A DNA stretch of 64,000 nucleotides from a virus: IMG/VR virus record IMGVR_UViG_3300027996_002186, positions 124,001 through 188,000 of that record. One strand, given 5' to 3'. Positions 8,828 through 60,836 of this stretch are shown here, piece by piece. Position numbers and translations under genes: made by a program. The notes beneath the pieces were generated by a model. It was not told where the DNA came from. It saw only the letters and a list, made by a program, of their open reading frames with translations, and searched no databases. Position 1 is the first letter of the stretch. Every line of letters begins with the position of its first letter.

Positions 8828-9280
8828 TGCCGCAGTTTTTGGGTCGGGTATATCAAAGTAAAATTGTGTTACGCTATTACAACTTGGAAGTTTCATTTGT
8901 TTAACTTCTAGTAAACACCCCGATTCTAATATGTTTTTTAATTCTTTACCTTTTGGTGTATCTAGAACTTTTAATACTATTTTTAACTCATCCACTTTAT
9001 TATTCGTTATGATAAAAGACATTGACCTAACAAAAAATGATATACTTTTTAATAATATATCAGAATATTCTGGTTTTCCTAAACTACCATATACCGGACT
9101 ATTTATTTTTGATATTTCGGTTACGTCAAATCCAATCCTTTTACCTTCGTTTAATAAAACATTAAGTTTTATCTCACGTTTATATTGTATCCATTGTGGA
9201 AATTTAGTTAGTAATCGATCATAGTTATTTAACTCAACATCATTTCCTAAAACAACATTATATTCTAGTAAATCATCCAT
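8825..9280 (-). CDS. Hypothetical 151-residue protein downstream of RNase R
   Basis: Not recognised. A soluble alpha/beta protein with an N-terminal acidic region (MDDLLEYNVVLGNDVELNNY). Its start overlaps the RNase R stop by one base, so the two are almost certainly translated from one message. It may work with RNase R, but no motif supports a specific role. Confidence 0.6.
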   Translation of the reverse strand: MDDLLEYNVVLGNDVELNNYDRLLTKFPQWIQYKREIKLNVLLNEGKRIGFDVTEISKINSPVYGSLGKPEYSDILLKSISFFVRSMSFIITNNKVDELKIVLKVLDTPKGKELKNILESGCLLEVKQMKLPSCNSVTQFYFDIPDPKTAA

Positions 9281-11184
9281 TACATTTTTATGAAATCTAT
9301 TTGTTTCTTTTCTAAATCAACACCATTAACTATGATAGTTATCTCATCACCTAATCTGATTCTATCCCCAACATCATTAAAGATTTGATAGTTTTGTGTG
9401 TCTATATTATAATTACCTTCTAAAGATTGGTATCTTATCATACCCTCACATTTACTTTCTGTTAATTCAACATATAATCCCCAATCAGTTACACCAGAAA
9501 CTATCCCAGTGAATACTTTCCCAATTTTATCTAAAAGATATTCGGCTTGTTTGTATTTTATAGAATCTCTTTGGGCTCTGGATGCTATCAATTCTCTACT
9601 TGAACACCATTTAGCCTCATCTTCAACTTTAGTAGGGTTTCCTTGTTTCTTATTATGTAAGAAATCAAGTAACATTCTATGTGTCATTAAATCCGGATAC
9701 CTACGTATTGGACTTGTGAAGTGTGAATAGTGTGTGAATCCTAATCCATAATGTCCTATGTTTTGTATTGTGTATGTTGCTTTAGACATACATCTAGTTA
9801 CAACCGTACTTAACATATTTTCTTCTGGTGTTCCTTTAACATCTTGTAATAACTTGTTTATAGATTTTTTAAGATCTTCAGATTCGCCTTCTATTTTGAA
9901 TTCGTGACCAAAAGTCTTACACACATTTGATAATGCTGTTAACTTCTCCATATTAGGAGTATCATGTACTCTAAATACATTAGTTCTCGAATTACTTGAT
10001 AATAGTTTAGCAACAGATTTATTAGCTAGTAACATAAATTCTTCAATTAATTTATTAGCTTCTTTCTGTTCTTTGAAATAAACACCAATTGGTTTCTTAT
10101 TATCCTCTGCTAATTCGAATCGAACTTCCACACCACCCATCTCTAATGAACCGTCTTTAATTCTTTTCTTTCTTATTTTCTTAGCTAATGTGTTTAGATG
10201 ATTAATCATCAATGGATAAACACTACCATCACCTGTGTATTTTTCATCATTACCCTCGATTATCTCTTGAGCATCCTCATAAGCAAATCTCATATCAGAA
10301 TGTATGACTGTTTTACCGTGCCATTCTTTAACAATTTTACCATCCGAGTCTAGTGTAAATACAACTGAAAATGCTAACCTATCTTCATTAGGTTTTAATG
10401 AACATATTCCATTACTAAGTCTTTCTGGTAACATAGATACACATCTATCAACTAGATACACAGATGTTGCTCTTTCATAAGCTTCATCATCTAATTTAGT
10501 ACCAGGTTTAACATAGTGTCCAACATCAGCAATATGTACTCCTACTTCAAATCTATTATCATTCATTACTTTAAGTGATAATGCGTCATCAAAATCACGA
10601 GCATCTACTGGGTCGATTGTTATTGTTGTTGTATCTCTCATATCTCTACGAGATTTTATTTCCTTTTCGGTTATTACTTCTGGTGTGAGTTCTGATTCGT
10701 TTATAACATCTTGTGGAAAATCAACTGGTAATCCATATTCATACATTATCGAATTCATCTCAGCGTTATTATCACCAACATCTCCTAATATCTTAGTTAT
10801 CTTAGCTTGTGGGGATTTACTATCTACCCACTTTGTGAGTTCGACTATAACCTTTTGGTTATCTTCCGATTTTAATCCACCCTTGATATAGAAATCAACT
10901 GGTATTCTTTTATTATCTGCTATAACAAATGTTGATTTACCATTAATATGTACCTTACCAACGAATTCTTTCTTATTCCTTGATATTGTGTTAATTACTT
11001 TAGCTTCTAATTTCCTATCACCCCTAAATACTTCTACAATTACTTTATCTAAGTGTAAAGCATTTTTAGTATTCTTCTTATAAATGAAAATTGATTTATC
11101 GTTTATTGTGATTGTTGCGTGTCTGTTTGTTGAGAACTCTATTTGACCTTCGTAACGTTCTCCTTCTTTTATATTATTATTCAT
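9280..11184 (-). CDS. rnr: RNase R / RNase II-family 3'-5' exoribonuclease
   Basis: Processive 3'-5' exoribonuclease. N-terminal cold-shock-type RNA-binding modules are followed by the RNB catalytic domain with the metal-binding motif DPVDARDFDDA. Next come VGVHIADVGHYVKPGTKLDDEA, YLVDRCVSMLPERLSNGICS and the HYSHFTSPIRRYPDLM block, then a C-terminal S1 domain (VFTGIVSGVTDWGLYVELTE). This order is complete RNase R, though shorter than bacterial enzymes (about 634 residues from this start, against 700-810). I chose ATG 11184: it follows AAAAGGAAT and avoids overlap with the upstream gene. An in-frame ATG at 11244 is the alternative. Host RNase R degrades structured RNA and works with tmRNA in non-stop mRNA decay; this phage also encodes a tmRNA. 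Confidence 0.92.
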   Translation of the reverse strand: MNNNIKEGERYEGQIEFSTNRHATITINDKSIFIYKKNTKNALHLDKVIVEVFRGDRKLEAKVINTISRNKKEFVGKVHINGKSTFVIADNKRIPVDFYIKGGLKSEDNQKVIVELTKWVDSKSPQAKITKILGDVGDNNAEMNSIMYEYGLPVDFPQDVINESELTPEVITEKEIKSRRDMRDTTTITIDPVDARDFDDALSLKVMNDNRFEVGVHIADVGHYVKPGTKLDDEAYERATSVYLVDRCVSMLPERLSNGICSLKPNEDRLAFSVVFTLDSDGKIVKEWHGKTVIHSDMRFAYEDAQEIIEGNDEKYTGDGSVYPLMINHLNTLAKKIRKKRIKDGSLEMGGVEVRFELAEDNKKPIGVYFKEQKEANKLIEEFMLLANKSVAKLLSSNSRTNVFRVHDTPNMEKLTALSNVCKTFGHEFKIEGESEDLKKSINKLLQDVKGTPEENMLSTVVTRCMSKATYTIQNIGHYGLGFTHYSHFTSPIRRYPDLMTHRMLLDFLHNKKQGNPTKVEDEAKWCSSRELIASRAQRDSIKYKQAEYLLDKIGKVFTGIVSGVTDWGLYVELTESKCEGMIRYQSLEGNYNIDTQNYQIFNDVGDRIRLGDEITIIVNGVDLEKKQIDFIKM

Positions 11185-11194
11185 ATTCCTTTTA

Positions 11195-13992: not shown

Positions 13993-15723
13993 ATGTCACA
14001 CATTAGAATAGACAAACAAAAAGCTATGAAGAAATGGTCTCCAGTATTAGAGAACATGGGAGTTGCTGGTGAAGATAGATTGGATTGGATGTCAGAATAT
14101 GCTGAATTTCACTCAATCAATGAAAACGCTTACGCAAACGCTTCAAACGTATCGGGTATGGGAGCTGTAGTAGCTGCACAACCTAATTCATTAGCTGGTA
14201 ACACAATTGGCAATTACGCTGACTCAACTGGTTCAGGTGATGTTGGTCAAAACCTTTTACCGGTAGCGATGAAAATAGCAGCTCAAACAATCGGTTTAGA
14301 TTTAGTAGCTGTTAAACCTTCTCCAGGTCCAAAAATTGATTTATTATATATCGACTTTAGATATGATGATGCTCATTTAGGAGATTCAGACGAAAGACCA
14401 CAAGTCTTTAAGATTGCACCAAACGCTACATTTTTAACTACTGGTGCTGGTGGTATGACAGCAGTTATCGCTGGATTAAGAGCTCAATTAGCTACGAATA
14501 CAATCACTGAAACAGTTGGTGGTTTAACTGGTAGAATGTGGAATGATATCACAGATGGTTCAGATGTAGTTGTAGAACCAACACCTTCAAAAGAAGGAAA
14601 AGTTGAATTTTTAGGATTCTCTAGAATTGATGGTTATCCAATGTTCAGAGCTTACAGACAGATGAATACATCTCACACAGATGTTGGTTCAGCTCAAGCA
14701 AACTGGGGATTTGACCCGACTAGAAACACATTTAGTCCTACAATGTCAATGGCTTCTCAAATTACTGATTTAGGAGATGTTACTTTAACTGATGAGCCTA
14801 CTATTGAATTAGTATCAGCTCTTGAAGATCACATTCCTGGTTTCTCTGCAAACTGGATGTCGGATGCTACTGGCCCTGCTGGTAACTATCCAATGGATAG
14901 AGAAATGGACGATAAAAGATACTCTGGTATCATCGGACCAAAAATTAGTTCTAAAACAGTTGCCGTAGGTACTATTGAAGTATCTTCAGCTCTTAGAAGA
15001 ACTGAAATTGAAGATATCAAAGCTAACACTGGTATGGATATCGTTCAAAAAATGGAGTCAATTCTTGTTAATGAATTATCTCAAACAATCTCTAAGCAAA
15101 TTGTTGCTAAGATATTTGAAATGGGTTCACTTAACAGATTATCTGCACCAGCTTATGTTGGAACAGCACCGGCACCATTAGCGGGACAAACAATCTTTGA
15201 CTTAAACACAGCTTATGCAACTGTTGCTGCTGGTAATGGAAACGTTGGTGGTGAAACTACACACGCTGTTCAAAGAAAGCTTGTAACTAAGATAGCTCAC
15301 GCTTCTAACTACATCGCTACAGAGGGACGTGTTGGTCCAGCTCAATACCTTATTACAAATGGGGGATTAGCAGCAGCACTTTCTGATATCTCTGGTTATA
15401 CAATTAACCCAGTGAAATCAAAAATCAATGGTCAAGGTCAATTATACCCAGTAGGTTCAATTGGAGATATTTCAATATATGTTGATCCATATATGAGATA
15501 TAACGACAATAGAATTGCTCTTGGTAGAAAGAACAATCCAGATCAACCAGGTATTATTTTTGTACCTTACTTAATGGCTCAGTCTATATCTGTAATTTCT
15601 GAAGCGACTTTCGCTCCTAGAATGTTACTAAGATCTAGATACGCTGTAACAGAAGTTGGTTGGTTCCCACAAAAACAATTTATGACTATCGAAGTTACAG
15701 ATGTGAATACACTTCTTAACTAA
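13993..15723 (+). CDS. gp23: Major capsid protein, T4 gp23-like
   Basis: HK97-fold capsid subunit of T4-like phages, 576 residues (T4 gp23 is 521). The N-terminus MKKWSPVLENMGVAG matches the gp23 delta region (K-W-x-P-L-L-E). A probable prohead cleavage site follows at SINE/NAYANASNV (residue 44), where T4 cuts after a comparable Glu. DLVAVKPSPGPKIDLLYIDFRY is the usual block after the cleavage site. The C-terminal domain has VGSIGDISIYVDPYMRYNDN and ISEATFAPRMLLRSRYAV. It has its own two-part promoter and a terminator after the stop, fitting very high expression. Confidence 0.95.
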   Translation: MSHIRIDKQKAMKKWSPVLENMGVAGEDRLDWMSEYAEFHSINENAYANASNVSGMGAVVAAQPNSLAGNTIGNYADSTGSGDVGQNLLPVAMKIAAQTIGLDLVAVKPSPGPKIDLLYIDFRYDDAHLGDSDERPQVFKIAPNATFLTTGAGGMTAVIAGLRAQLATNTITETVGGLTGRMWNDITDGSDVVVEPTPSKEGKVEFLGFSRIDGYPMFRAYRQMNTSHTDVGSAQANWGFDPTRNTFSPTMSMASQITDLGDVTLTDEPTIELVSALEDHIPGFSANWMSDATGPAGNYPMDREMDDKRYSGIIGPKISSKTVAVGTIEVSSALRRTEIEDIKANTGMDIVQKMESILVNELSQTISKQIVAKIFEMGSLNRLSAPAYVGTAPAPLAGQTIFDLNTAYATVAAGNGNVGGETTHAVQRKLVTKIAHASNYIATEGRVGPAQYLITNGGLAAALSDISGYTINPVKSKINGQGQLYPVGSIGDISIYVDPYMRYNDNRIALGRKNNPDQPGIIFVPYLMAQSISVISEATFAPRMLLRSRYAVTEVGWFPQKQFMTIEVTDVNTLLN

Positions 15724-15797: not shown

Positions 15798-16187
15798 ATG
15801 ATTAAAAAGTATAATTATTTCTTTGAGTCTAAGAAGACTAAGTTCCCTAATATTAAGAAAGTTGAAGTAGAAGGATTCTTTATTCATATAGGTAGAGACT
15901 CCAAATCTAACGACCACTTAACATTTAACGTTGCTGATGATAAAGACATCTGGATGCACGCTAAGGGTGTTCCTGGGAGTCATGTTATTATAAGAGTTAG
16001 AGAAAACTTACCAACTCAAGAAATACTAAGATATGTTGCTGAATTAGCTAAAAAGAATAGTAAAGCTAGTAAAGAAGATAATGTAACTGTTGTTTATTGC
16101 CAAAGAAAATTTGTTAAGAAAGAAAGTGGTATGAATGAGGGTCAAGTAAGAGTTGATTATATCAATGCCTACGAAATCGTAGTTTGA
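15798..16187 (+). CDS. Free-standing NFACT-R domain protein (RqcH/NEMF-type) with capsid-targeting-like leader
   Basis: The 129 residues match the NFACT-R (DUF814) domain of RqcH/FbpA/NEMF. Key blocks are FFIHIGRDSKSNDHLTFNVA, DIWMHAKGVPGSHVIIRVRE, then a helix with AELAKKNSKASKEDNVTVVY and RKFVKKESGMNEGQVRV. In RqcH the domain is part of a protein that binds obstructed 50S subunits and directs alanine tailing; the NFACT-N and coiled-coil parts are absent here. Short NFACT-R proteins occur in bacteria but are poorly known. The first 11 residues, MIKKYNYFFES, match the leader shared by many small proteins in this genome and resemble the T4 capsid-targeting peptide, so the protein may be packaged. 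It lies between the capsid and metallopeptidase genes. Confidence 0.85.
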   Translation: MIKKYNYFFESKKTKFPNIKKVEVEGFFIHIGRDSKSNDHLTFNVADDKDIWMHAKGVPGSHVIIRVRENLPTQEILRYVAELAKKNSKASKEDNVTVVYCQRKFVKKESGMNEGQVRVDYINAYEIVV

Positions 16188-16224: not shown

Positions 16225-17580
16225 ATGGCAGGAGAAACTAAAAGAGTAAAATTTTCGGATAAATTACTAAAGATACTTAAAAGTATGGAGGATAATAATA
16301 GTTATCTAGCTTTTGAACTTCTTTGGATGAATGATCCAACTGCAAAATATCATAATGGCCTTAATATAACAAATGTTGATTGTGGTACAGATAAATCATC
16401 AGATTTTAATTTCACTGTTGTTATTGGTGGTAAGAAAAATATAATGAAAATTGGTAAATTCATTAGATATTACTTTTCTAATCTATTTAGTAGTGATGAG
16501 ATAACAAAATTTGCTCATGCTTTCAATAGAGTGAAGAATGGTGGTAAGGCTGAACAATCTGGTAAAAAAGTTGAAATACCTGAGTTTAGTTATAATCCAA
16601 AAGACCCTAGGTCTACATTCTTATCACTTGTTACAGAAACATACCCACACCCACATGAGGAGAAAGTTATGAAATACTTACCAAAAGACTTAGATAAAGA
16701 TGAATTTGGTAATTATTATAAAGTGATTCCTGGTGATGATACTACAATGTTTAGTTCTCACCTTGATACGGCTGATAGAAGTCCAGTTCCTACTAACCTA
16801 TTCACTAAAGAGGTAGATGGGGATGAGATAATCTATACTGATGGTAGTACAATATTAGGGGCTGATGATAAGTCTGGAGTTACTGTTATGATGTATATGA
16901 TGGTTCATAATATCCCAGGTATTTATTATTTCTTTATTGGTGAAGAAAGAGGTGGTATTGGTTCTAATCAATTAGCTGATGTTTATGATAAATTTGATTT
17001 CCTAAAAAATGTTAAGAAATGTATTTCTTTTGATAGAAGAAGAACAATTTCTGTTATAACACATCAAATGGGTGGTCGTTGTTGTTCTGATGCTTTTGGT
17101 ACAGGACTTTGTAAAGAGTACAATAAACAAGGACTTAACCTTTCATTGGATAATGGTGGCGTTTATACTGATTCTGCTTCATTTATGGATATTATTCCTG
17201 AGTGTACTAATTTATCTGTTGGTTATTTAAATGAACACACAGGTAGAGAAGAACAAAACATGACATTTTTAATACAGTTGTGTAAAACTTCTATTAATGT
17301 TGATTGGGCTGGATTACCAGTTGCTAGAAAAGTAGGTTTGAACCTTGATTTAGTGCAGAAGCACAAATCTTTAATTGATGTTATAAAAAATGCAGTATTT
17401 GAATTAGAGGTGAAGATGGTTGGGTTTGAGGATAAAATATATATAAGAATAGATTTAGATGATACTAATCTAGTAACTGTTTATGATACTTTGAATATTG
17501 TACAAAACTTACTTGATAAACATAAAGTAGATAGTATGTGTATTTTTACTGAAACATATCTTAAAATAGAATTAACATAA
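16225..17580 (+). CDS. M20/M28-type zinc metallopeptidase with extra N-terminal domain
   Basis: The 451-residue protein has a co-catalytic zinc peptidase domain from about residue 125: SSHLDTAD (His179, Asp181), ILGADDKSG (Asp214/215), FFIGEERGGIGSN (Glu240, Glu241), SFDRR (Asp270) and NEHTG (His338). These are the ligand positions of M20/M28 aminopeptidases and carboxypeptidases. Residues 10-110 form a separate small domain with MKIGKFIRYYF, a pattern I have seen in other phage proteins but cannot name. A paralogue without this domain lies at 42000. It may recycle peptides or trim virion or host proteins; the substrate cannot be read from sequence. Confidence 0.8.
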   Translation: MAGETKRVKFSDKLLKILKSMEDNNSYLAFELLWMNDPTAKYHNGLNITNVDCGTDKSSDFNFTVVIGGKKNIMKIGKFIRYYFSNLFSSDEITKFAHAFNRVKNGGKAEQSGKKVEIPEFSYNPKDPRSTFLSLVTETYPHPHEEKVMKYLPKDLDKDEFGNYYKVIPGDDTTMFSSHLDTADRSPVPTNLFTKEVDGDEIIYTDGSTILGADDKSGVTVMMYMMVHNIPGIYYFFIGEERGGIGSNQLADVYDKFDFLKNVKKCISFDRRRTISVITHQMGGRCCSDAFGTGLCKEYNKQGLNLSLDNGGVYTDSASFMDIIPECTNLSVGYLNEHTGREEQNMTFLIQLCKTSINVDWAGLPVARKVGLNLDLVQKHKSLIDVIKNAVFELEVKMVGFEDKIYIRIDLDDTNLVTVYDTLNIVQNLLDKHKVDSMCIFTETYLKIELT

Positions 17581-17581
17581 T

Positions 17582-18146: not shown

Positions 18147-18523
18147 GGGGGTGTCATAGAATAGATTCGCAGAGTAAAGGTAGTTATGCAGGTATCGGAT
18201 TGTTAAATACCCGATTAATAAATTAAATAACAAAACAGTAAACGGAAACGTAACAGAAGTAGCAAGCAAAGAAGATTTAGTATTTGCTCTACAAAACAAC
18301 CTACTTAACGTAGGGGAGTTAGTTGAAGCTTAATAGAGGAAACTCTTGAAAATTTAACAACTGATTTACACAGTTAAAAAGGTAAGACCGTTATTTGATA
18401 ATTTTTAGAAGTCTTTTCAAAAAAATTATCTAGTTTGAAAGTTTAGAAAAACTTTCTAAGCCTGTAAATGAATAATTATTGTTAACTGAGGAAGACACGA
18501 TGGGCAGTACATCGTCATCTCCA
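18147..18523 (+). ncRNA. ssrA: Transfer-messenger RNA (tmRNA)
   Basis: The ends pair as an alanine tRNA-like acceptor stem: GGGGGTG (18147-18153) with CATCTCC (18516-18522), including the G3-U wobble read by alanyl-tRNA synthetase. Discriminator A is at 18523, followed by CA in the genome. GATTCGCAGAG matches the tmRNA D-loop region. Pseudoknot PK1 is clear: ATCGG/CCGAT (18194-18198, 18211-18215) and TTGTTA/TAACAA (18200-18205, 18228-18233). Helix P2 is CAGG/CCTG. Ten bases after PK1 the likely resume codon GGA (18244) opens a 29-codon tag starting GNVTEVASKE and ending GELVEA, then TAATAG. Tags usually end LAA-like, so this end is unusual. The T-arm (ACGAT/ATCGT) has a non-canonical loop. 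It rescues stalled ribosomes with SmpB, presumably from the host. Confidence 0.88.
18244..18333 (+). other. tmRNA tag reading frame (29 codons plus stop)
   Basis: The frame runs from GGA 18244 to GCT 18330, with TAA at 18331 and an in-frame TAG directly after. The resume codon is inferred from its distance to PK1 and the Gly start common in Bacteroidota tags. The predicted tag is long and ends in Leu-Val-Glu-Ala, not Leu-Ala-Ala. Confidence 0.65.
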
Positions 18524-18558: not shown

Positions 18559-18560
18559 AA

Positions 18561-18592
18561 CCTCACTTCCTACATGGGAGTGAGGTTTTTTA
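18561..18592 (+). terminator. Second tandem terminator after tmRNA
   Basis: CCTCACTTCC, loop TACAT, GGGAGTGAGG, then T6. It immediately follows the first hairpin. Confidence 0.85.
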
Positions 18593-18655: not shown

Positions 18656-19132
18656 ATGATTAATAAATTCGAAGGTCGCTGGAGATTTCTATCAAACTTC
18701 TATCCGTGTGTGGTAGAACACCAAGGTATATCATATCCATCAAATGAACATTATTATGTTGCTATGAAAGTGACGGATGAACAATTTATTAATGGTAGAT
18801 ATTATACCGCTGGTGATTTCAGAGAAATGATAGCGACAATACCAAGTGCTGCTATTGCTAAAAAGTTAGGACAGAAAATAAAGGTTCGTAAAGATTGGGA
18901 AGTTAAGAAGATTGAATTTATGAACTGGGGTGTTAGAGAAAAATTTAATAACAACTCAACTCTTCGAGAATTATTATTATCAACTGGTGACGATGAACTA
19001 ATCGAGGGTAATTTTCATAAAGATACTTTTTGGGGAGTTTGTAATGGAAAGGGTAAAAACCATCTTGGTAAAATTCTTATGGAAGTAAGAAGAGAGTTGA
19101 GAGGTGAGAAGAGAGTTGGTCTGTTTATTTGA
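18656..19132 (+). CDS. NADAR-family (YbiA-like) protein
   Basis: The 158 residues show the NADAR pattern: RWRFLSNFYPCVVEHQGISY, PSNEHYYVAMK, then KDTFWGVCNGKGKNHLGKIL and MEVRREL. Reported activities of the superfamily include riboflavin-pathway N-glycosidase (YbiA) and removal of ADP-ribose from DNA guanine. The latter would oppose DarT-type anti-phage toxins. All conserved blocks appear intact and the length is normal. It sits between the tmRNA and an adenine methylase, a plausible counter-defence pair, though that role is inference. Confidence 0.88.
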   Translation: MINKFEGRWRFLSNFYPCVVEHQGISYPSNEHYYVAMKVTDEQFINGRYYTAGDFREMIATIPSAAIAKKLGQKIKVRKDWEVKKIEFMNWGVREKFNNNSTLRELLLSTGDDELIEGNFHKDTFWGVCNGKGKNHLGKILMEVRRELRGEKRVGLFI

Positions 19133-19226: not shown

Positions 19227-20198
19227 ATGTCTGTTATTAGCTATTTTGGTGGCAAGTCCTCAAAGGTCTTCCATCAGTTCATCAACACAAGAATACCAAA
19301 AGATGGTATCAAAACTTATGTAGAACCATTCTCAGGTGCAATGGGAACGTATATGGATGACCCAAATCTTAAATTCGATACAGTTGTTTATAATGATAAG
19401 AACCGCCACCAGGTGAACTTATATAAGTGTTGTCAAAATCCAACAGAAATGTTGATACATATAGATAATCTAAAGAGTGGTTTATTACACACAACAGAAA
19501 CGGATCCAATAAAAAATTGGGATTTTTATAAAGCTATTTATAAGACATTTCAAAAGAATGATTTCTTAGATGATATGGATTTTGAGATTGGGGATTATGA
19601 AAAAGCTGCTATGTATGCTTTCTTAATTACATCAGCTCATAATTCAGTTTATCCAAGAGGAGCAGGGTTTAATGGTTATAAGAAGAATAATGGCAAACTT
19701 AAAATAGAAGCACTTGTTAATAAACTAAAGAAGGGTAAGTACACAGAGAAATTGGAATCAATTACTGAGTTCTATAATATTGATTTTGAGGAATTGATAA
19801 ACAAATATGATTCAGTAGATACATTTCTTTACTTAGACCCACCTTACGCTAGATTTGACGAGGCTAAAGGAATGGATGATGCTAGGAGACTATTCTGGTA
19901 TGGATGTGATGATGAAGGTGTCTTTGGACCCGAATCACATAGAAGGTTATTAGAAATGCTTAAAAAGACTGATTGTAGATGGTCATTATCTTATTATTAC
20001 TTTCCTTTATTAGAAGAATTATTACCAAGAGACCAATATAACTGGGTTGAGAAAGAAGTATTTAGAAGTTCTGCTCATGGTGGTAACAATTCGGATAATA
20101 AAAAGGTACAAGCTAAAGGTGTTGAGATGCTTATTATGAATTATAATCCAGAAACGGGAGAAAAAATCACTAATAAGGATGTCGAATGTGAACTTTAA
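19227..20198 (+). CDS. DNA adenine methyltransferase, D12 (Dam) class
   Basis: N6-adenine methylation of DNA. The SAM-binding motif SYFGGKSSKV is at the N-terminus, followed by YVEPFSGAMGTYM and YNDKNRHQVNLY, with the catalytic DPPY in FLYLDPPYARFDEA near residue 210. The order is that of Dam/D12 enzymes, and 323 residues is near normal for the class. It would protect phage DNA from restriction or mark it. Its end overlaps the start of the capsid-paralogue gene by 20 bases. Confidence 0.9.
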   Translation: MSVISYFGGKSSKVFHQFINTRIPKDGIKTYVEPFSGAMGTYMDDPNLKFDTVVYNDKNRHQVNLYKCCQNPTEMLIHIDNLKSGLLHTTETDPIKNWDFYKAIYKTFQKNDFLDDMDFEIGDYEKAAMYAFLITSAHNSVYPRGAGFNGYKKNNGKLKIEALVNKLKKGKYTEKLESITEFYNIDFEELINKYDSVDTFLYLDPPYARFDEAKGMDDARRLFWYGCDDEGVFGPESHRRLLEMLKKTDCRWSLSYYYFPLLEELLPRDQYNWVEKEVFRSSAHGGNNSDNKKVQAKGVEMLIMNYNPETGEKITNKDVECEL

Positions 20199-23249: not shown

Positions 23250-26200
23250 ATGTCAAATCATAAGAATCTTGTATTTTTCAATAAAGAAGGAGACTACTTA
23301 AACTTTAATTATAGTGAATCTAATGATAGATTCGAAGGAGATATGCTCTTTCACGAAAATTCAACAGATACGTTTAAGACTTATGGTCTTTATACTATGG
23401 AAAATATACCATCTTTTGAGTTTGAATTACCTGGTGAATTAACAACTAAAAAGTTTCAATTATTTAATGAATATGGTTTAAACCTATATGGTGCTAAGTA
23501 TGATGACCAAGATATAATAAATATCGAACCGGTTAATAACGATCCCTCTTTCTACTCTAAATGGATATATGGTATTGACTTTGAATCAAAATTCCCAACA
23601 GGAACACTTATCAAGTTTAATAGTCCTTTATTTGAGTTTAATAATATTAACCAAACATATGCTGTTGTTAGTAGTAAGAAAAATGCTATTATGATTATTG
23701 GGCAGATGGATAATGCTACATTTGAAAGTACTTACTATTCATCATATATTGATGTGAATAGTTATGATAATAAAACGATAACGGGAATTAATGCTGTTGG
23801 TGTTTATAATTATATAGATTCTTCTTATGATAATAATTTATCTGATTGGTCAGAGCCGGATTTTTATGATGAATATTATGTTGGTAAGAAATTAAATTTA
23901 GTTAATACTGAATTTAATGATTCGGTAGTCTCTGTTGAGAATATAGATGTTACAGATCAAGTTCATTTTGAATTCTCAACAAACAATTCTAATTTACCCG
24001 ATGATTCAAATTTTATAATAGAAGTTATAACAAAAACTGATATACCTAAGGTGTATGAAGGAGGGTTAAGTATAACTACTGATAGTAGAATCTATATAAA
24101 TAACGTTTTTAATTACCCACATATACTAAAATCTGGTACGGAATTCAAAATTATAGGATCTGTTGATAATCAAAATTTTTTAAGAGTTTCTAATATACCA
24201 ACATTTGCTGGTAACACACAATTAACATATTATGCTACACAGTCTCAAGTTTTATTCAATAATAGAATATATGAATGTGTAAAAGGTTATACACAAAGCT
24301 TTGCATCACAAACAACATCCTTTGTAACACCTTTAAATACTAATTATTGGTCTAACCCAACTTATGTTAAAGTTGAACAGTCCACGGTTGCAGAATCTTT
24401 ATTATCTGCTCAGATATATTTAACAACAGATAGATATTATTTTTATACTGGTTGGACTAGTTCAGCTGCTGTTACATTAGCGTCTGCTGCTGATAAATAT
24501 AAAGAAGATCTTAAAATATTTAATATTGATTTATTTTATAAAAATAATACATTAAAATCTGATTTAATTTATCCTAGTGATTATGCTAAAGTTAACTTTT
24601 ATCATAGTGAAATAGGTGCTACCTATTCCATCGGCTCTGAATTAAAAACTTCTGAGAGATTGGTTGAGGTTGAAGAAGAATTAAATTATGAATTAAATTA
24701 TGATATATCTGAGAATTTCAAATATAATATTGTTTTTACTGATATTGATGAATTTGGTATACTGGTCGAGGTCAATAAAATGATATATGATGAAGAAGTT
24801 GCCTTTATTTATACCGGATCAATCATTGATATGGAAAGAACAATAGATAGAACTTTAAGATCTTGGTTATCACGGTGGTATTTAAGATTATTATCATTAG
24901 GTATAATAGCTGAATTAAAATATGTAGGTAATTATACTTCTGTATTTTATAATTCAATTGTTTTGAGAACAGAATATCCTAATGTTCCACTTGATATAAA
25001 TAATGTTGAGGTTGGTATAACAGCAAATTATCATATAGAACACTCTAGAGTTTTGTTCGATGACATGGGACCATTTTTAAATATCATAATAAATGATGAA
25101 TCATATTCACAACAAACAATTTATAGTGGATTACTTCCGGATATCCCATCTACTTTATCAGCTTGGATGGAAAAACATTCTGAGATATTAGTCAGCTTCG
25201 AGATTTTCGTAACAAATATTAATAATTTATTGAAATTTGATATTAAGCATTTGGGTAGAAGACTAGATTATACAATAACTACTGGTAAATTAAATATACC
25301 GGGTTTACAAGATTATATAATAACAGAAAAGATATTAGGTAATCATGGTATGTTAATAGCTTCTAATGAGGTTTTACTACCTGATACATCATTAACATCA
25401 TTTGAGGATTCTGGGTTCGCTACGGGTATGGTATTTGCTATAAACAATACATACCATCCATATGTTAATCAAGATTTTAATATACAATTTTTAGACCCAC
25501 AGGTGCTGAATTTGAGTTATCAAGGACCTTTTTGGGGATTAACCGATAGTATTTGTAATTCATCAGCTTTTGTTACATTAGCATTTGATTATGGTTTTGG
25601 CCAAACTGGTTGCCAGCCAATAATTGTACCAACTCAATCTGAGGGTGGTGCGTTTGGCGGAGGTGATGATGGTGCTTCTCCAGGATTACCAATGAGCTCC
25701 TTCGATTTGAATATGTTCTCTTTATCATATAATCTGAATGAATATGTGGTTAATGAATATGATTTAAATTCTTTCTCTGGGACTACCGGATTAGTTGATA
25801 TTAAATATGTTCAGTTATCTAATTCTATGTATGCTTATGGAGATGAATTAGTTGTTATAGATGCTTATATAGGACAATATATAACAACAGTTGCTTTACC
25901 AGGTAATACACAAAGTATAGAGGTTGAATTTAACCCTATAAATAATTATCTTTACTGTTTATCTAAAAACAGTATTTATGTTGTTGATCCTCTTATTAAT
26001 ACCTTGATTAACACAATTTCTTTATCTAATGACGCTTTTGATATCGGGATGAATCCAATAAATGGTGATGTTTATGTTACATATGATAATATACCATATA
26101 TTGATATTTGGGAATATAATAATTTAACTAATATACCAAATCATAATCTGACAACACCATCACCATTAGATACTAAGACGGGAAAAATGGTATTTAATGA

Positions 26201-29117
26201 TTTTGAAGGTGATATGTATATTACAACTAATGCTGATTTGGTAGTTAGAATAGATGGTTTAACAAGAACATTTCAGACGAGTTATGGTGTTACTGGATTA
26301 ACACATTCGATTTTTTATGAACCGGTTAATGAGGGTATATATGTTTATGGATCTGCTAGTTTATGGAAAATAGATAATGGCGCTACACAATCGATTGCTT
26401 TACCATCACAAGCATTCAATGATGTTATATTTAATAATATAACTGGTGAGATGAACGTATCCGATTCATCTACAAATTTTACTAGAATGAATTTAGATAC
26501 TGATTTTTATTTACAAACCGGTGTTTCTAATTATGGGTATTTAATGATAAATCAATTTGATGGTGATGTTTATTTATCATCACAAACATATGATAATATA
26601 CTGGTTTTGGATGGTGTTGATGGTACTGTTAAATATACCGCTCCTGTGAGCGCACAGACGACAAAATTAGTTTATAATCCTGAAAGAAAATCTATATGGG
26701 CAATACAGCCATCTATAAACTCAGTCGTTGAGCTTGATGTTGAGCTTGGTGGTGTTATAAATTTATTACCACCAACATATGATACAATTGAGGATAATCA
26801 ATACGGTACTTTGGATCCAGATTATGAACAAAGAGAAAGTATTTGGTTAAAAACCAGAGATTATATGAGAAGACCGAGAGAAAATTTTGAGGGTGATGTC
26901 TCTGTTAAGTATTATTGGAGGTGGCTTTCTGATAATGTTCCTCAATTCTTCTTATATGATTTTAGTGGTATTCAATTAGATAGAACCACAACTGGATCAT
27001 ATTCTTATATTGGTGAAAGACCTTTAACAGAAGTAGTTCTTAATAAATATCCAAATAGTGATATTAGTAAGGTATCTTTGTCACAATACCAACAAACTAT
27101 ATTCGATAAGGTCGAACAAACATTAAGTTATGTTGATGATGAGGATGATATTTCAACTGATGTAGAACCTTTGCAATTATTTTTGGGATTCAAATCTGAA
27201 AATCCAGGTGCTTTAAGATCTGTATTGCAATTGTATAAGAAAGAAGAAATTTATTTCGATATTATATCGGATACTGTGAATAGTATTACACTTGAAACTT
27301 TGGATATTAATAATGAGAATAAAAGAGGTCAATTAACAATATTAGAATCATCAATTGAAACATTTACTAAAAAGGGATTAAAACCTGGTCAACATATTGT
27401 TGTTTATTTAAAGGATACTATGAATGATGAAAATCAGTATATATCTGGTAATAATGGTATTCTTTTGAAGGTTAGGGAGGTTTATACCAAGACGTTAGTT
27501 GTGGATTTCTTTAATCTATCTTATGACTTCATAGAGTATGAAAATACTGTTATATCGGATTATCCATTTGTCGGTACTAATACTTATTTAGATTTAAGTA
27601 TAAAGGTTGTTGATAGAGAAATAGGTAGGTTCACAACCTATGCTGAGACAGAGGAGGAAGATATTCGATTTAAAGTAGAATTGGGTAATGTTGGTAAATT
27701 AATTGGTCCAAATGAAGTTTTTATATTCAAGGAGTATGATATATTAGAGGGTGGTATAGACTGGCCTTATCTCAATAAGAAGAGAAAGGAGATGTTGATG
27801 ATGAAACATTTGATATATCCTTATATCGGAGCTTATAAGTCTATTATAAATGCGATTAATTACTTTGGTTATAATGATTTACAATTGAATGAATATTATA
27901 AAAATGTTGATCCAGCTTCCGAGAATTTCTCTAAGTTGTTTAAGGTTGAAATACCTGATATATTTGATAATAGTGTTGATGGTTGGGAAGAAAATGACTT
28001 CATAAAACACACAATGCCGAATAATAAATTTGATGGTACAAATTTATTTAATTTAACATATTTTATAACAGATAAAGAGGGTAATAATGTACTCAGTTAT
28101 AGTATTGATGAAATTATTATAAAATTACAAGGATTGAAATTTTGGCTTAAGAATAATATTATCCCATTGACACATAAGATAATGGATATAACAGGTAAAT
28201 CTTATATAAATAATGGTACTTATATAGTACACAAGGTACATGATGTTAGAATATTTAATATAAATCAAGAAATGACACCGATAACATTTAAATTAAATGA
28301 GTCTTATTTATCTCCTGTTAATAGTGGATCTACTGTTTATGATTGTGTTCTTGATTTTTATTCAATAATACCTGGAGTTGGTGCTGAGATTACACCATCG
28401 GAGACATTATTAGAAAAGCCTAAAACTTTTAATGGTTCTAATTTGGTTCTTCCTGATTATTTTAATATTAAAATAAGAACTTATAAAACTTATAAAGAAT
28501 GGGCTCCTTTTAAAACTTATATTACCGGTGATAAGGTTACTTATTATGATAAATTATATGAGTCTGTTATTGATAACAATAAGGTTAAAAATCCTAGAAA
28601 ATATGAAAATGCTACTGAGTGGAATGCTACTGATGGTTACCAATTAACTAATATAGTTCAATATAGAAGAGATTTTTATGTTTATAGTGGTTTAGGTAAT
28701 ACACAATCAATCATCAGTCCTAATTTAGATCCAGGAAATTGGTTAGATGTTACTGAGTGGAGGCAACTTGATTATGATCCTGTACAGACTATAAATGAAT
28801 TTAGATCTGGTGATGATTTGTTACCATTTAATTTCATTATTGATTCAAATATTGACCCGTTTATAGTCATTGAAGTTACATCAGATAATGGATATGGTAG
28901 TGTTTATAGTGATAAAAAAAATTATGAAATTAGAGGATTGAAAGATTTAACAGAACCATATAATCCTATTGATCCAATTGGTCCTTTTGAGCCAATACCA
29001 CCAGTTTATGGAGAACAACCAGCAATTCCTTTCCATGGTGGGCATGGAAACCCACATGGTGAGCCACCAGTACTACCACCACCCGGCCGTGGAGGAATTC
29101 CAAATATTTCGCCGTAG
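23250..29117 (+). CDS. Giant tail/baseplate-type virion protein with beta-propeller and carbohydrate-binding-like modules
   Basis: 1955 residues, the largest gene here. The N-terminal 800 residues are beta-rich and unrecognised. Residues about 850-1180 contain repeated NGDVYV/NYLYCL/GDMYIT strands with VVID and VLDG, the pattern of YVTN/NHL-type beta-propellers. Residues 1480-1600 (YLNKKRKEMLMMKHLIYPYIGAYKSI and on) look like a helical core of a baseplate protein. Near 1750-1850 two modules of W-x4-Y-x2-GD-x-V-x-Y and W-N-A-T-x-W type resemble CBM5/12 carbohydrate-binding modules. The C-terminus is Pro/Gly-rich. Size and position suggest a gp7/gp10-type baseplate wedge or a host-recognition fibre. 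The propeller inside such a protein is unusual. Confidence 0.6.
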   Translation: MSNHKNLVFFNKEGDYLNFNYSESNDRFEGDMLFHENSTDTFKTYGLYTMENIPSFEFELPGELTTKKFQLFNEYGLNLYGAKYDDQDIINIEPVNNDPSFYSKWIYGIDFESKFPTGTLIKFNSPLFEFNNINQTYAVVSSKKNAIMIIGQMDNATFESTYYSSYIDVNSYDNKTITGINAVGVYNYIDSSYDNNLSDWSEPDFYDEYYVGKKLNLVNTEFNDSVVSVENIDVTDQVHFEFSTNNSNLPDDSNFIIEVITKTDIPKVYEGGLSITTDSRIYINNVFNYPHILKSGTEFKIIGSVDNQNFLRVSNIPTFAGNTQLTYYATQSQVLFNNRIYECVKGYTQSFASQTTSFVTPLNTNYWSNPTYVKVEQSTVAESLLSAQIYLTTDRYYFYTGWTSSAAVTLASAADKYKEDLKIFNIDLFYKNNTLKSDLIYPSDYAKVNFYHSEIGATYSIGSELKTSERLVEVEEELNYELNYDISENFKYNIVFTDIDEFGILVEVNKMIYDEEVAFIYTGSIIDMERTIDRTLRSWLSRWYLRLLSLGIIAELKYVGNYTSVFYNSIVLRTEYPNVPLDINNVEVGITANYHIEHSRVLFDDMGPFLNIIINDESYSQQTIYSGLLPDIPSTLSAWMEKHSEILVSFEIFVTNINNLLKFDIKHLGRRLDYTITTGKLNIPGLQDYIITEKILGNHGMLIASNEVLLPDTSLTSFEDSGFATGMVFAINNTYHPYVNQDFNIQFLDPQVLNLSYQGPFWGLTDSICNSSAFVTLAFDYGFGQTGCQPIIVPTQSEGGAFGGGDDGASPGLPMSSFDLNMFSLSYNLNEYVVNEYDLNSFSGTTGLVDIKYVQLSNSMYAYGDELVVIDAYIGQYITTVALPGNTQSIEVEFNPINNYLYCLSKNSIYVVDPLINTLINTISLSNDAFDIGMNPINGDVYVTYDNIPYIDIWEYNNLTNIPNHNLTTPSPLDTKTGKMVFNDFEGDMYITTNADLVVRIDGLTRTFQTSYGVTGLTHSIFYEPVNEGIYVYGSASLWKIDNGATQSIALPSQAFNDVIFNNITGEMNVSDSSTNFTRMNLDTDFYLQTGVSNYGYLMINQFDGDVYLSSQTYDNILVLDGVDGTVKYTAPVSAQTTKLVYNPERKSIWAIQPSINSVVELDVELGGVINLLPPTYDTIEDNQYGTLDPDYEQRESIWLKTRDYMRRPRENFEGDVSVKYYWRWLSDNVPQFFLYDFSGIQLDRTTTGSYSYIGERPLTEVVLNKYPNSDISKVSLSQYQQTIFDKVEQTLSYVDDEDDISTDVEPLQLFLGFKSENPGALRSVLQLYKKEEIYFDIISDTVNSITLETLDINNENKRGQLTILESSIETFTKKGLKPGQHIVVYLKDTMNDENQYISGNNGILLKVREVYTKTLVVDFFNLSYDFIEYENTVISDYPFVGTNTYLDLSIKVVDREIGRFTTYAETEEEDIRFKVELGNVGKLIGPNEVFIFKEYDILEGGIDWPYLNKKRKEMLMMKHLIYPYIGAYKSIINAINYFGYNDLQLNEYYKNVDPASENFSKLFKVEIPDIFDNSVDGWEENDFIKHTMPNNKFDGTNLFNLTYFITDKEGNNVLSYSIDEIIIKLQGLKFWLKNNIIPLTHKIMDITGKSYINNGTYIVHKVHDVRIFNINQEMTPITFKLNESYLSPVNSGSTVYDCVLDFYSIIPGVGAEITPSETLLEKPKTFNGSNLVLPDYFNIKIRTYKTYKEWAPFKTYITGDKVTYYDKLYESVIDNNKVKNPRKYENATEWNATDGYQLTNIVQYRRDFYVYSGLGNTQSIISPNLDPGNWLDVTEWRQLDYDPVQTINEFRSGDDLLPFNFIIDSNIDPFIVIEVTSDNGYGSVYSDKKNYEIRGLKDLTEPYNPIDPIGPFEPIPPVYGEQPAIPFHGGHGNPHGEPPVLPPPGRGGIPNISP

Positions 29118-31226: not shown

Positions 31227-34200
31227 TTAGTTTAATTCCTCTACATTCTGAATCTTTCCATCACTCGCATCTTGTATAAATTCATCTATTGTGTTTGTTG
31301 ATTTGTCAATATTTGTCAATAATCCTATTAATAAATCCAGTTGTTGTGGTATTGATCTACCTTCTAAACCATACTTAGTTTTATCTGTAAGATTAGGTAA
31401 CTTAACATTCTTTTTACCAACTGATTCTGGTTTATCTTCTCCACCCCATAATCCGGTAAATTTACCGAGGTCATCCATTGGGTGCCATCCACCATCATTC
31501 TCACTTTTTATTTGACTTAAATCATTTGCTAATTGATCAGTTTGAAGAGATTTAACTTCCTTTAGCTTTTCCATGTTGATTGCTTCTAAAGCAATTCCAA
31601 ATTTCTCAAAAGAGGTGGTTAATATATCATATGAATCCGCTAATACAACCATACCACCTGCAATTCTCATTATTGGATCCTCTCCAAATCCAAATGCGCC
31701 AGCAACACTACCCAAGAAGGATCCTTCTTTTTCTTCGACTCTTGTTAAATACTCAGCTAATCTAGTATAGTCTATTATATTTCTGCTTAATTTCTTTATA
31801 AAGAGAGGGTCTATTTTAACATCAAAATATTTTTTATTTTTATAAAAAATATAAGCTGTGTTTGCCATAGCTTGTGCTACTCTATCAATAATACCCATAT
31901 CTTTTTCAGTTCTAACCACTTCCGTTTTCGTACTCGTCTTAGCACCGAAACCAGCAAATCCTCCTGATTTACTACTTGTAGTTTTTGTTGAAGTAGTTAC
32001 TAACATATCATCAAGCCATTTTCCCAACTTTGCGAATCCCATTACATTCGTAGCTATATTTGGTATAAATTTTGGATCTAGTTTAACTGCAAAATATCTT
32101 TTATTATCAAAAAGAATACGGGCTGTGTTTGCCATTGATTGAACACCACCCTCCAACATTGAGGAGTTCACAGAAAAACTGTATTCGCTGTATCCAGCCA
32201 TAGTTAAATCATAAAATATATCTAAAAAGGAATTTATCGCCTTTCGAATACCGATACCCCATGCTTCATCAGGATGATTTTGCCAATATTCTTTCCCAAC
32301 ACTCCCTAGTGTTTCTCCAGCACTCCTTATAGATCTAGCTATGATTCTTATCCCAGATCCTAGTGATTGTGCTACTTCCTCTTGGCTTGGTCCAGTCCAT
32401 CCACCACCATTTGTCATCATCAGATTAAAGACTTCCGAGAACGATCCAATTGCTTCTGCAACACCTTTACCCCAACCTTTACCAGGAACATTGTCCTTTT
32501 TCCATATTTCTGGGATAGTGTCATAAAATATCCAACCCGCATCAACTATCGCCCTTGAAACCGATCGAATTCCGTAACTCATTGCCTTTATTGTCGTAAC
32601 AGACGAAGAATACCAGCTCGTATTGTTCATAGCTTCAAATACTGGTGCAAATGAGTTAATTGCTGCTCCAACACCTTCTCCCCAACGTTTTTTTGGATAG
32701 TTTTTCTTAAATGCTGCTTTATTTTCTGCGAATATACCCGCTGCATCTATAATAGCATAAGATATAGATCGGATAGCTCTTTCCATATCAGCTACTGATG
32801 GTCCATTGGACCACCCTCCTTGATTGTTCAAAACCTCATATACTGGTGCGAATGCGCCAATTGCTGTTCCAACCCCTTCGGCCCAACGTTTTGATGGTCC
32901 ATCCTTGAATTGGTCACTCGCTCCGGAAAATTTATCAGCGGCTGATATAATACCATCAGAAACCGTTGTGATAGCATTCGTAAAATCATCAGGACCTACA
33001 CCACTACCACCAAGTATTGACATTATAGAATTCATCTGCATCATTTTATAAATAGGCATAAATGCTCCTAATGCTATCGATATTCCTTCTGCCCACTCTT
33101 TTGTTGGACCACCTTTATAATTTCCCTTATAAAGAGTATGTGATACGGCTACTATTGTATCTGCTATCGTCAACATCATACCCTGTGCTACTAAAAATGG
33201 ATCATCTCCTCCGAAGAATGAAATAATAGCACCCGCTACACTCATGACACCCAATGCCATTATAATTGGTGTAAATGTTAAATATAATAATGCTGTAGCT
33301 GTTGCCCATTCTAACATACCTGCATTATCATATTTACCCTTGGATAGAATATCTGATACTTTTGCTATAGTAGCAGCTACAACTAGTATAGCACCTAAAC
33401 CAGCTAAAAATATTAGTGCTTGTGGACCAAATACCATCAGACCCAAGAGTATAGCGGCGGTAGCCATAACTGTCATAGCTAAGGCCACTCCGGCTAACCA
33501 CTCTATACCTGGGTAGGTTTCATAAGTACCTAATGCTTGAATGTAATCCAATGCTACAATAGCAAGTGCTACAACTAGTATAGCAACTAAACCAGCTAAA
33601 AATACTAGTGCTTGTGGACCAAATACAAACGATCCTAAGAGTACAGCAGCGACACCCATCGCTACCATACTTAAACCTACTCCGATTATCCAATCTAAAC
33701 CTGGATATGTATCATAATTACCTAATGCTAAAATGTGTGATGTTACCATTACTGCTACCGCTATAATCAAAATTGCTAATCCACCTTTTAATAGATCAAC
33801 AACACCCATCTTACTTAATACCTTCATTGGTCCGACTAATGCAATAGTAAGACCGGCCATTAATACACCAATTGCTGCTATTTTAAGTATTAGTCCCCAA
33901 CTTATATCAGCGGTTAATGCTAAAATGTGTGATGATACCATAATCGCTATTGATATCAATGTAAAGAATATTGGTATTTTAGGGAGTGATGACCATTCCA
34001 TTTTATTCATTGCTTTAACTATTTTTACCATCCCAAATGATAAAACAACAAATAATATTGCTATAAGTACTGATGTAAACCATTGCATAAGACCCACTGG
34101 TTGTACTAAAGAGAGTGCGTATGATGCTCCTGCTATACCTAGTGCGATAGCTGGTAGAATTAATGGTAAGAAAATAGATGCTTGTATTAAATCTTTGGTA

Positions 34201-58881: not shown

Positions 58882-58918
58882 AAAAAAAGGAGAAGATTTT
58901 TAACTTCTCCCTTTTTTT
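58882..58918 (+). terminator. Terminator after nrdA
   Basis: GGAGAAG, loop, CTTCTCC flanked by A8 and T7, about 15 bases after the stop codon. Confidence 0.88.
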
Positions 58919-58920
58919 GC

Positions 58921-58972
58921 TATAAACAATCCACCTTCGAAAAAAATGAAATTTTAGAGGTTGATATATACA
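58921..58972 (+). promoter_or_regulatory. Two-part promoter element, copy 4 (non-coding RNA)
   Basis: TATAAACAATCCACCTTCG, then TTGATATATACAT with 43 bases from AATCCA to the C. The first helix of the non-coding RNA begins 27 bases downstream. Confidence 0.7.
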
Positions 58973-58977
58973 TATAG

Positions 58978-59350
58978 AAATTAGAAACGAATAAAAAACC
59001 AGTAGTGATTTAAAGAGTTACTTCGAAATATAAATTCTAAAAACACACTCTTTGATAACTTCCTCTGGTCTATTATTATAATAAGCAAACATAGCGATAG
59101 TTTGAGATACTTCGAGATCTAAATGATCAACTATGAAAAAAAGTGATTAGCGACAGCGAATCTACCAAAACACTATAAAGTAGTTGAGGTGAAAAAGTCC
59201 GAGTGACTACGTAAAGGTCAAAGTGAGATGGTCACTTAAACTATCGGCGAATATTCTCACGAATCTTCGTAGCGCTTCGGCTAAATTTTCTTGTTTGCAA
59301 ATATTATATAAAAGACCAGATTAACTACAAATGTAGAGAGTCTGGTCTTT
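58978..59350 (+). ncRNA. Structured non-coding RNA, candidate Y RNA for the adjacent Ro60 protein
   Basis: A 500-base gap between nrdA and the Ro60 gene has no credible ORF but strong pairing. A long imperfect helix joins 58998-59018 with 59047-59069 (ACCAG/CTGGT, AGTGATT/GATAACT, AAAGAGT/ACTCTTT) and carries GTAGTG on its 5' strand, as in Y RNA Ro-binding stems. A second helix pairs CGATAGTTTGAG (59095-59106) with CTTAAACTATCG (59235-59246), enclosing smaller hairpins. Bacterial Y RNAs are usually encoded next to rsr, so position supports the call. The RNA has its own two-part promoter and ends in a terminator. The start base is estimated from the promoter. Confidence 0.6.
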
Positions 59351-59355
59351 TTTTT
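59311..59355 (+). terminator. Terminator of the non-coding RNA
   Basis: AAAGACCAGA, inner CTAC/GTAG hairpin, TCTGGTCTTT plus T run. A second copy of TCTGGTCT at 59064-59071 could also pair with AGACCAGA, so two structures are possible. Confidence 0.85.
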
Positions 59356-59384
59356 GAATTAAAAATTAAATAAAAATAAAAATT

Positions 59385-60836
59385 ATGTCAAAATTTAACA
59401 CAACAATGCCAAAGGCAATAACAAAGACTTCCAATTTAGCTGGTGGGGAATCTTATTCACAATCTAATGAGTTAGTGTTGGTTTCGCTATTATTAACATC
59501 ATTTGTTAATACTCAATTTTATAGAGATGGTGGTAATTCTTTAGTAGATTTGAAAAATATTTCTGAGAAGGTTAAGGATAAAGAGTTTGTTGCGAAAGCT
59601 GCTATATTTGCTCGTGACCGTTTCGGGATGAGAAGTATTACTCACGCTTTAGCTGGTGAATTGACTTCACAACTTACTGGTCAAGAGTGGGCTAAGGATT
59701 TCTACGAGAAAGTGGTTGTTCGTGTTGATGATATGACAGAAATATTATCTTACTACTTAGAAAACAAAACATCTAAAGATAATCCAAAGTTTCCAAATGC
59801 TTTGAAGAAGGGATTTGCGAAGGCTTTTGATAAATTTGATGGATATAATCTATCTAAGTATAAAGGTGAGAATAAGGAAGTGAAGTTAGTTGATATTGTG
59901 AACTTAGTTCACCCTGTTCCGACTTCTAGAAATAAAGAAGCGCTTGAGTCACTTATCAGAGGTGAGTTGAAAAACACACAAACTTGGGAAGCTAAGTTAT
60001 CTGAAGCTGGTCAAAAGGCTGATTCTAAGGAAGATTTGGAAAAATTAAAATCAGATGCTTGGGGAGAGTTAATCTCAACTGGTAAGATTGGATATTTCGC
60101 TCTTTTGAGAAACTTGAGAAATATTATAACTCAATCACCTACTTCTATTAAGGAAGCTTGTGAGATGTTAGTTAATGAAAAGTTAATCAAGAAGTCAAGA
60201 ATTCTTCCATTCCGTTTCGCTACGGCTTATGAGGAAATCAATAAGATTGGTTCTTCTAAGGATGTCAGAGATGTACTTATTGCTCTTAATCAAGCACTTG
60301 ATATATCAGTAGCTAACGTTCCTAAGTTCGAAGGAGAAACACTTGTAGTTATGGACGTTTCAGCTTCTATGAGGGGTATAGCATCTGACACGGCTTCTTT
60401 ATTCGGTGCAATTCTATCAAAGGTTAATAACTGTGATGTTATGACATTTGCTAGAGAAGCTAACTATATGGCATATAATCCAATGGATTCTGTGTTAACT
60501 ATTAGAGATGGTTTTAGATTTGCTGGTGGTGGAACAAACTTTAAGTCAATTTTCACAACTGCTAACAAGAAGTATGATAGAATAATAATTCTTTCAGATA
60601 TGCAAGGATGGGTTGGTTATACTACACCATCTGATGAATTTAACCAATATAAGAATATGTTTGGTGCTACACCATTCGTTTATTCTTGGGATCTCGCTGG
60701 GTATGGTACATTGCAGTTCCCAGAAAATAATGTCTTTGCTTTAGCCGGATTTTCCGATAAAGTATTCGATATTATGAAGTTGATGGAGGTCGACAAAAAG
60801 GCTCTCTTCAATGAGATAAAGTCTATCCAGCTTTAA
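59385..60836 (+). CDS. rsr: Ro60/TROVE-domain RNA-binding protein (Rsr-like)
   Basis: The 483-residue protein has an N-terminal TROVE HEAT-repeat ring (VLVSLLLTSFVNTQFYRDGG, EFVAKAAIFARDRFGMRSITH, RVDDMTEILSYYLENK, YFALLRNLRNII, ILPFRFATAYEEI). A C-terminal von Willebrand A domain follows, with MIDAS motif MDVSASM near residue 325 and GGGTNF. This is the full Ro60 architecture, slightly short (Rsr about 530). Ro60 binds Y RNA and misfolded or structured RNA, and in bacteria assists exonucleases in rRNA maturation and decay. The candidate Y RNA lies directly upstream. RNase R is also phage-encoded, and Ro60 is very rare in phages. Confidence 0.92.
   Translation: MSKFNTTMPKAITKTSNLAGGESYSQSNELVLVSLLLTSFVNTQFYRDGGNSLVDLKNISEKVKDKEFVAKAAIFARDRFGMRSITHALAGELTSQLTGQEWAKDFYEKVVVRVDDMTEILSYYLENKTSKDNPKFPNALKKGFAKAFDKFDGYNLSKYKGENKEVKLVDIVNLVHPVPTSRNKEALESLIRGELKNTQTWEAKLSEAGQKADSKEDLEKLKSDAWGELISTGKIGYFALLRNLRNIITQSPTSIKEACEMLVNEKLIKKSRILPFRFATAYEEINKIGSSKDVRDVLIALNQALDISVANVPKFEGETLVVMDVSASMRGIASDTASLFGAILSKVNNCDVMTFAREANYMAYNPMDSVLTIRDGFRFAGGGTNFKSIFTTANKKYDRIIILSDMQGWVGYTTPSDEFNQYKNMFGATPFVYSWDLAGYGTLQFPENNVFALAGFSDKVFDIMKLMEVDKKALFNEIKSIQL

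Follow-up and report, generated by a model that had tools for sequence, protein, structure and literature searches.

A 64,000-nucleotide stretch of viral DNA (the window; bases 124001-188000 of the 483,262-base virus record IMGVR_UViG_3300027996_002186, here G000) carries on its plus strand, at positions 18147-18523, a gene for a divergent transfer-messenger RNA (tmRNA). Together with phage genes for SmpB, the exoribonuclease RNase R and Clp proteins, this RNA probably forms a divergent, self-sufficient phage trans-translation system. Related giant phages keep the same kit, which suggests that they run their own ribosome rescue instead of borrowing that of the host. The genome also encodes a freestanding NFACT-R domain protein and a Ro60-type protein preceded by a structured RNA.

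A tmRNA with an unusual T-loop and a long tag frame

The tmRNA had been called in a first-pass annotation made from the letters of the window. Neither ARAGORN nor Rfam at its gathering threshold called a tmRNA in the window sequence, and an Infernal match to the tmRNA family RF00023 ran the full length at just 8.8 bits, below the cut-off. Two better-scoring low-threshold Rfam matches over the same region, PyrR and the L10 leader, were rejected, as both fell below their own cut-offs and consisted mainly of a terminator hairpin. A likely terminator, a hairpin with a T-run 3′ of the tmRNA (18560-18592, plus strand), is kept in relative L001.

Despite these misses, the call is proven by homologs with covarying stems. 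The RNA is 82% and 76% identical to its counterparts in two relatives, near-full-length homologs were found at 60 phage loci, nearly all of them IMG/VR contigs around the capsid gene, and the clade records carry the gene, some fragments excepted. The loci were drawn partly from near-identical contigs, so that locus counts given here are not counts of independent events. The covariation alignment comprised the 45 distinct tmRNA sequences and was compared with 500 shuffles. Across the acceptor stem, H2, an internal hairpin and the T stem, 98.7% of the cells held standard pairs, and 109 cells were doubly changed (compensatory) versus 29 in the shuffles, none of which reached the observed value. 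The H2 helix, which links the tRNA-like and mRNA-like parts, was 100% paired. RNAalifold independently returned the same helices with a longer H2, along with conserved hairpins inside the tmRNA, and folding of the single sequence yielded the acceptor and the T arm. The RNA at 18147-18523 is a tmRNA, and we see very little room for doubt on this point.

The gene extends from the 5′ strand of the acceptor stem to the discriminator base A73, and CCA is not encoded. In the covarying acceptor helix the 5′ strand GGGGGUG (18147-18153, plus strand) pairs with 18516-18522, the third pair being G-U. Counted from the ends, the seven-base-pair acceptor has G3-U70 as its third pair and A73 as the discriminator in 45/45 sequences; both are known alanine identity features.

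The T arm (18497-18515, plus strand) consists of a six-base-pair stem, ACGAUG/CAUCGU, which covaries at five of its six pairs, and the loop GGCAGUA. The typical tmRNA T-loop, on which search programs rely, is UUCRANU (TTCRANT). Here the loop reads GGCRGTR in most sequences, the UUCRA pattern is lost in 44 of the 45, and the remaining one is near canonical. As this loop departs from UUCRANU, we call the RNA a divergent variant and not a standard tmRNA. A signature pattern of this T arm matched no contig among 84,980 species genomes of bacteria and archaea, a scan in which a control pattern with the canonical T-loop had more matches than were listed; among viral sequences it matched 50 stretches, each a tmRNA from this clade. 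The tmRNA of W05, a more distantly related huge phage, is of the standard kind: ARAGORN detects it, and its tag reads GNNAEMRMAA. The SmpB search of related records found no SmpB in the W05 record. In the tmRNA of relative LR756501 (735 kb), a group I intron lies directly at the T-loop (L190 1660-2232, 96 bits, E 7e-25), and its flanks, read by eye, rebuild the acceptor with G3-U70; this intron position in tmRNA is known from bacteria.

The tag reading frame (18238-18333, plus strand) would encode VNGNVTEVASKEDLVFALQNNLLNVGELVEA ahead of its stop codon, starting from a putative resume codon. It is open, conserved and stop-terminated in the homologs, as a rule over 29-31 codons versus a usual tmRNA tag length of 10, and codons for invariant residues (D, L and N, for example) vary synonymously. 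The C-terminus is always A or V, never LAA. RNAalifold places an RNA hairpin over part of the frame, and the conservation of the tag is therefore only partly peptide-driven.

Candidate partner genes and their recurrence

The absence of an SmpB gene from the window, noted in the first-pass annotation, holds, but the need for host SmpB derived from it does not, because the same genome encodes SmpB at 275875-276303 in whole-record numbering (E 3.5e-54), outside the window and 134 kb beyond the tmRNA. The protein scores above the TIGR00086 cut-off, matches solved SmpB structures over residues 3-143, C-terminal tail included, and is present in every clade record of at least 385 kb. SmpB is likewise encoded by the Lak phages of Prevotella (MK250015-MK250029), with 44-45% identity. 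A phage sigma factor with regions 2 and 4 (L169 6914-7519) was seen about 2.4 kb upstream of SmpB.

A complete RNase R, a 3′-5′ exoribonuclease, is encoded as first reported at 9280-11184 on the minus strand (ATG at 11184), with RNB (E 1e-110), CSD and S1 domains and a TIGR02063 score of 643.7 bits against a cut-off of 597.9. Its gene lies upstream of the capsid gene in 62 of 72 loci, and the RNB domain was found in 14/20 records. ClpP is likewise present in 14/20 records, with two copies in G000. A Clp ATPase of about 710 residues occurs in nine of the 20, G000 among them; it is nearest to ClpB, below the ClpB cut-off, and has a VGF-like loop in its D2 domain. In ClpC, the VGF-type loop contacts ClpP. 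Many matches to SmpB, RNase R and RqcH in Listeria and fecal-fragment records filed as phage were rejected, as they look like bacterial contamination, and such bacterial-looking matches were left out of the phage-gene counts.

Records W01-W04 additionally encode a release-factor-like protein of about 137 residues that consists of the GGQ domain only, is nearest to RF1 and resembles PrfH and C12orf65. It was not found in record G000. At 483 kb this record is probably incomplete, given that the nearest complete relatives measure about 635 kb; the position of the W01 gene would fall outside the part that G000 covers. GGQ-only proteins in complete relatives (L173 6065-6478 and L165 1441-1851) are candidate codon-independent ribosome rescue factors.

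Apart from the release factor, the full set of tmRNA, SmpB, RNase R, NFACT-R, Ro60, ClpP and Clp ATPase occurs together in G000, G002, G003 and W01. The first-pass annotation had singled out the combination of tmRNA, NFACT-R, RNase R and Ro60 and suggested that together they might rescue ribosomes after host mRNA destruction and recycle host RNA. This proposal is partly supported: all four calls are genuine and relatives carry the combination too, so that the outcomes named as refuting did not arise, while joint action of the parts and its proposed role would be conjectural.

The NFACT-R protein, Ro60 and the adjoining RNA

The freestanding NFACT-R protein (129 residues; 15798-16187, plus strand; PF05670 8.2e-16) is encoded about 75 nucleotides 3′ of the gene for the Gp23-like major capsid protein (13993-15723, plus strand; PF07068 2.7e-26), which anchors the conserved neighbourhood. 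The best solved match of its AlphaFold model (predicted local distance difference test, 88) is RqcH on the 50S subunit (1.8e-10), and the D-W-H...PGSH motif is kept; the original domain call is thereby confirmed. NFACT-N, the other domain of RqcH, was noted as missing from the window and was found in 0/17 related records, G000 included, and we rejected an identity as RqcH on this ground. The remaining NFACT-R matches from the phage collection resemble bacterial RqcH and come from records that appear contaminated. Of the 55 loci with sufficient downstream sequence, the tmRNA is present in 53 and NFACT-R, placed between the capsid gene and the tmRNA, in 45; all 45 NFACT-R loci also have the tmRNA.

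The Ro60-type protein (59385-60836, plus strand) has a TROVE domain (2.4e-18), weaker vWA matches and a DVSAS sequence resembling a metal ion-dependent adhesion site. Its best fold matches are all Ro60, one of them from a Thermus phage, in line with the initial assignment. Relatives were found on 26 IMG/VR contigs, nine of which also gave capsid-region loci with tmRNA or NFACT-R.

The structured RNA reported ahead of this gene (58978-59350) is indeed conserved and folded. Aligned sequences define two domains on the plus strand: a domain I hairpin (CCAG...CUGG; 58999-59068; helices 1-2) with a UACUUCG motif, and domain II (59085-59298), which contains a second UACUUCG and is closed by helix 3, GCAAACA/UGUUUGC. 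The helices covary, the closing helix of domain II is 100% paired with three doubly changed pairs, and the folding z-score of -5.5 is better than that of all shuffles. A terminator-like hairpin (59312-59355, plus strand), seen in the sequence and in the consensus structure, separates the RNA from the Ro60 gene. Genuine exact-motif copies lie in 14/14 cases about 275-630 nucleotides before the matched TROVE start, and within the phage collection the RNA was found in W01 only, a Ro60 carrier. One match to the pattern, in L193, was dismissed as chance: it falls in other sequence, probably that of a transposase, and TROVE is not encoded near it. No Rfam family matched, Y-RNA families included, and the proposed label of Y RNA therefore stays a candidate.

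Proposed mechanism, alternatives and genomic setting

We consider it likely that the phage itself encodes trans-translation, in the following form. The tmRNA, judged by its structure, would be charged with alanine via the G3-U70 acceptor; phage SmpB would bind it, and the complex would enter ribosomes stalled on truncated mRNA and add a tag of 29-31 residues. Phage RNase R could then degrade the freed mRNA, and phage ClpP with the Clp ATPase the tagged protein, the genes being present and their coupling to rescue presumed. The altered T-loop may adapt the tRNA-like half to a phage partner or let it evade host handling. Going by its family, the NFACT-R protein most likely binds RNA or the 50S subunit and would be an accessory factor in rescue or in the handling of tRNA, and Ro60 with its adjoining RNA most likely forms a separate RNA-quality-control particle. 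On sequence grounds, we have good confidence that trans-translation by the phage tmRNA would work; it is doubtful that NFACT-R and Ro60 belong to the same pathway. More speculative, and in our view rather unlikely, is an orthogonal system in which the phage-only T-loop tmRNA would pair with phage SmpB, the long tag would be read by phage Clp, and the NFACT-R protein would act as a further factor, so that rescue continues after host quality control has been disabled.

Several observations weigh against a phage trans-translation system of this kind. The T-loop has neither U54 nor U55, which could impair folding or the binding of SmpB and EF-Tu, and degradation of the tagged protein is uncertain because the tags have no LAA end. 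RNase R stops after its S1 domain, without a K/R-rich C-terminal tail; the E. coli enzyme needs such an extension to join tmRNA-SmpB (PMC12320835). The SmpB and Clp genes do not adjoin the tmRNA, and W02-W04 have tmRNA and SmpB without Ro60, W03 and W04 also without NFACT-R, making Ro60 and NFACT-R clade-specific additions and not core parts. The scattering of the genes and these partial sets also favour independent acquisition of the parts, as is typical of very large phages, and no single pathway: rescue by tmRNA and SmpB, nucleotide recycling by RNase R, RNA repair by Ro60, and tRNA or RNA binding by NFACT-R. RNA-repair genes are frequent in jumbo phages, and we regard this explanation as a real contender that nevertheless falls somewhat short of probable, given that NFACT-R is always accompanied by the tmRNA (45 loci) and sits between capsid gene and tmRNA, and that tmRNA-SmpB is known to work with RNase R.

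Other alternatives concern single components. The tmRNA might be a decoy whose altered tRNA-like domain occupies host SmpB or blocks host trans-translation; the non-canonical T-loop in 44/45 sequences would fit, and a tmRNA reduced to the tRNA-like domain, like the short tmRNA of phage DS6A, inhibits host tmRNA (PMC4131195; PMC11915505). We find this quite improbable, as the full-length RNA keeps a tag frame, a stop codon, the alanine identity pair and the discriminator, none of which a decoy needs, and as the phage's own SmpB would be superfluous. Scarcely more probable is that the long conserved tag acts as a stabilising or sorting tail by which phage proteins, once tagged, are retained or packaged and not destroyed. 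Its length, its A or V end in place of LAA and the position of the tmRNA inside the capsid gene block speak for such a tail; on the other side, every tag ends in a degron-like small non-polar residue, the phage encodes ClpP and a Clp ATPase, and the RNA hairpin explains part of the conservation. As for the RNA before Ro60, it may be a cis-acting leader controlling Ro60 expression and not a Ro60-bound Y RNA, given its place directly upstream, the terminator-like hairpin at its end and the missing Rfam Y-RNA match. Bacterial Ro60 genes, however, are often adjoined by Y RNAs, and a terminator before the gene equally fits a separate transcript; we hold the leader to be a possible but not a favoured explanation.

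Measured against bacterial tmRNA-SmpB (RF00023, PF01668), the phage trans-translation system shares the G3-U70 and A73 acceptor, H2, a tag frame with a stop codon and a tailed SmpB; it differs in being phage-encoded, in its GGCRGTR T-loop, in a 29-31 codon tag without LAA, and in escaping both ARAGORN and the Rfam cut-off. The survey of huge phages by Al-Shayeb et al. (2020; PMC7162821) covered the same Mahaphage group and already held the idea of phage-encoded rescue by tmRNA and SmpB, but its tmRNAs were found by ARAGORN, which is blind to the present class, and NFACT, TROVE and RNase R go unmentioned in its main text. With RqcH/Rqc2 quality control the NFACT-R protein shares the domain, its D-W-H...PGSH motif and the fold, whereas it is the NFACT-R domain alone, with no NFACT-N in the record or its relatives. 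Ro60-Y RNA particles, including Ro60 of Thermus phage phiLo (structure 9l5y), likewise combine a TROVE and vWA protein with an adjoining structured RNA; the phage RNA is larger, two-domained and unmatched by the Rfam Y-RNA families.

Phage tmRNAs, tmRNA with SmpB in huge phages (2020, PMC7162821) and TROVE proteins in jumbo phages are thus already known. What appears to be new is the tmRNA variant, its association with NFACT-R and the RNA linked to Ro60: our searches of the open-access literature turned up no account of this T-loop, of so long a tag, of a freestanding NFACT-R next to a tmRNA or of the RNA ahead of Ro60. A tmRNA class overlooked by ARAGORN and the Rfam release used here is kept by the largest known phages alongside SmpB, an exonuclease and a protease, which raises the question of whether giant phages are host-independent in ribosome rescue and protein disposal. 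The class also offers a natural test of T-loop and tag sequence requirements, and its association with a freestanding NFACT-R domain is the first such link to a tmRNA known to us.

By its sequence, G000 is kin of the 634-735 kb Mahaphages. The capsid protein shares 73-78% identity with those of LR745206 (634,780 bases) and LR756502 (642,428 bases) and about 52% with those of LR756504 (636,363 bases) and LR756501 (735,411 bases). The predicted hosts of the Mahaphages of 634, 636, 642 and 735 kb are Bacteroidetes (PMC7162821). A Bacteroidota-type promoter lies 5′ of the tmRNA in 20 of 45 loci, versus 0.6 expected by chance; the window copy is imperfect, and we therefore take the promoter as supporting host evidence only.

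Several further genes were noted in the window. A NADAR-domain protein (18656-19132, plus strand; PF08719 5.1e-28) is the conserved 3′ neighbour of the tmRNA in 52/55 loci. A D12-class DNA adenine methyltransferase (19227-20198) comes next, and the pair, conserved in most relatives, is possibly involved in counter-defence. Between NFACT-R and the tmRNA, a putative metallopeptidase (16225-17580; weak M28/PepT matches) is kept in most loci. Two very large proteins of 1955 and 1274 residues (23250-29117 and 31227-35051) had no Pfam match at E 0.001. On the minus strand, the window encodes a GlnII-type glutamine synthetase (2668-3750; 398 bits, below the cut-off), a 282-residue protein that resembles glutamyl-tRNA synthetase (4462-5310; gltX 218 bits, below the cut-off) and also GluQRS, and a protein with a TnsA-like endonuclease N-terminal domain (5366-5887).

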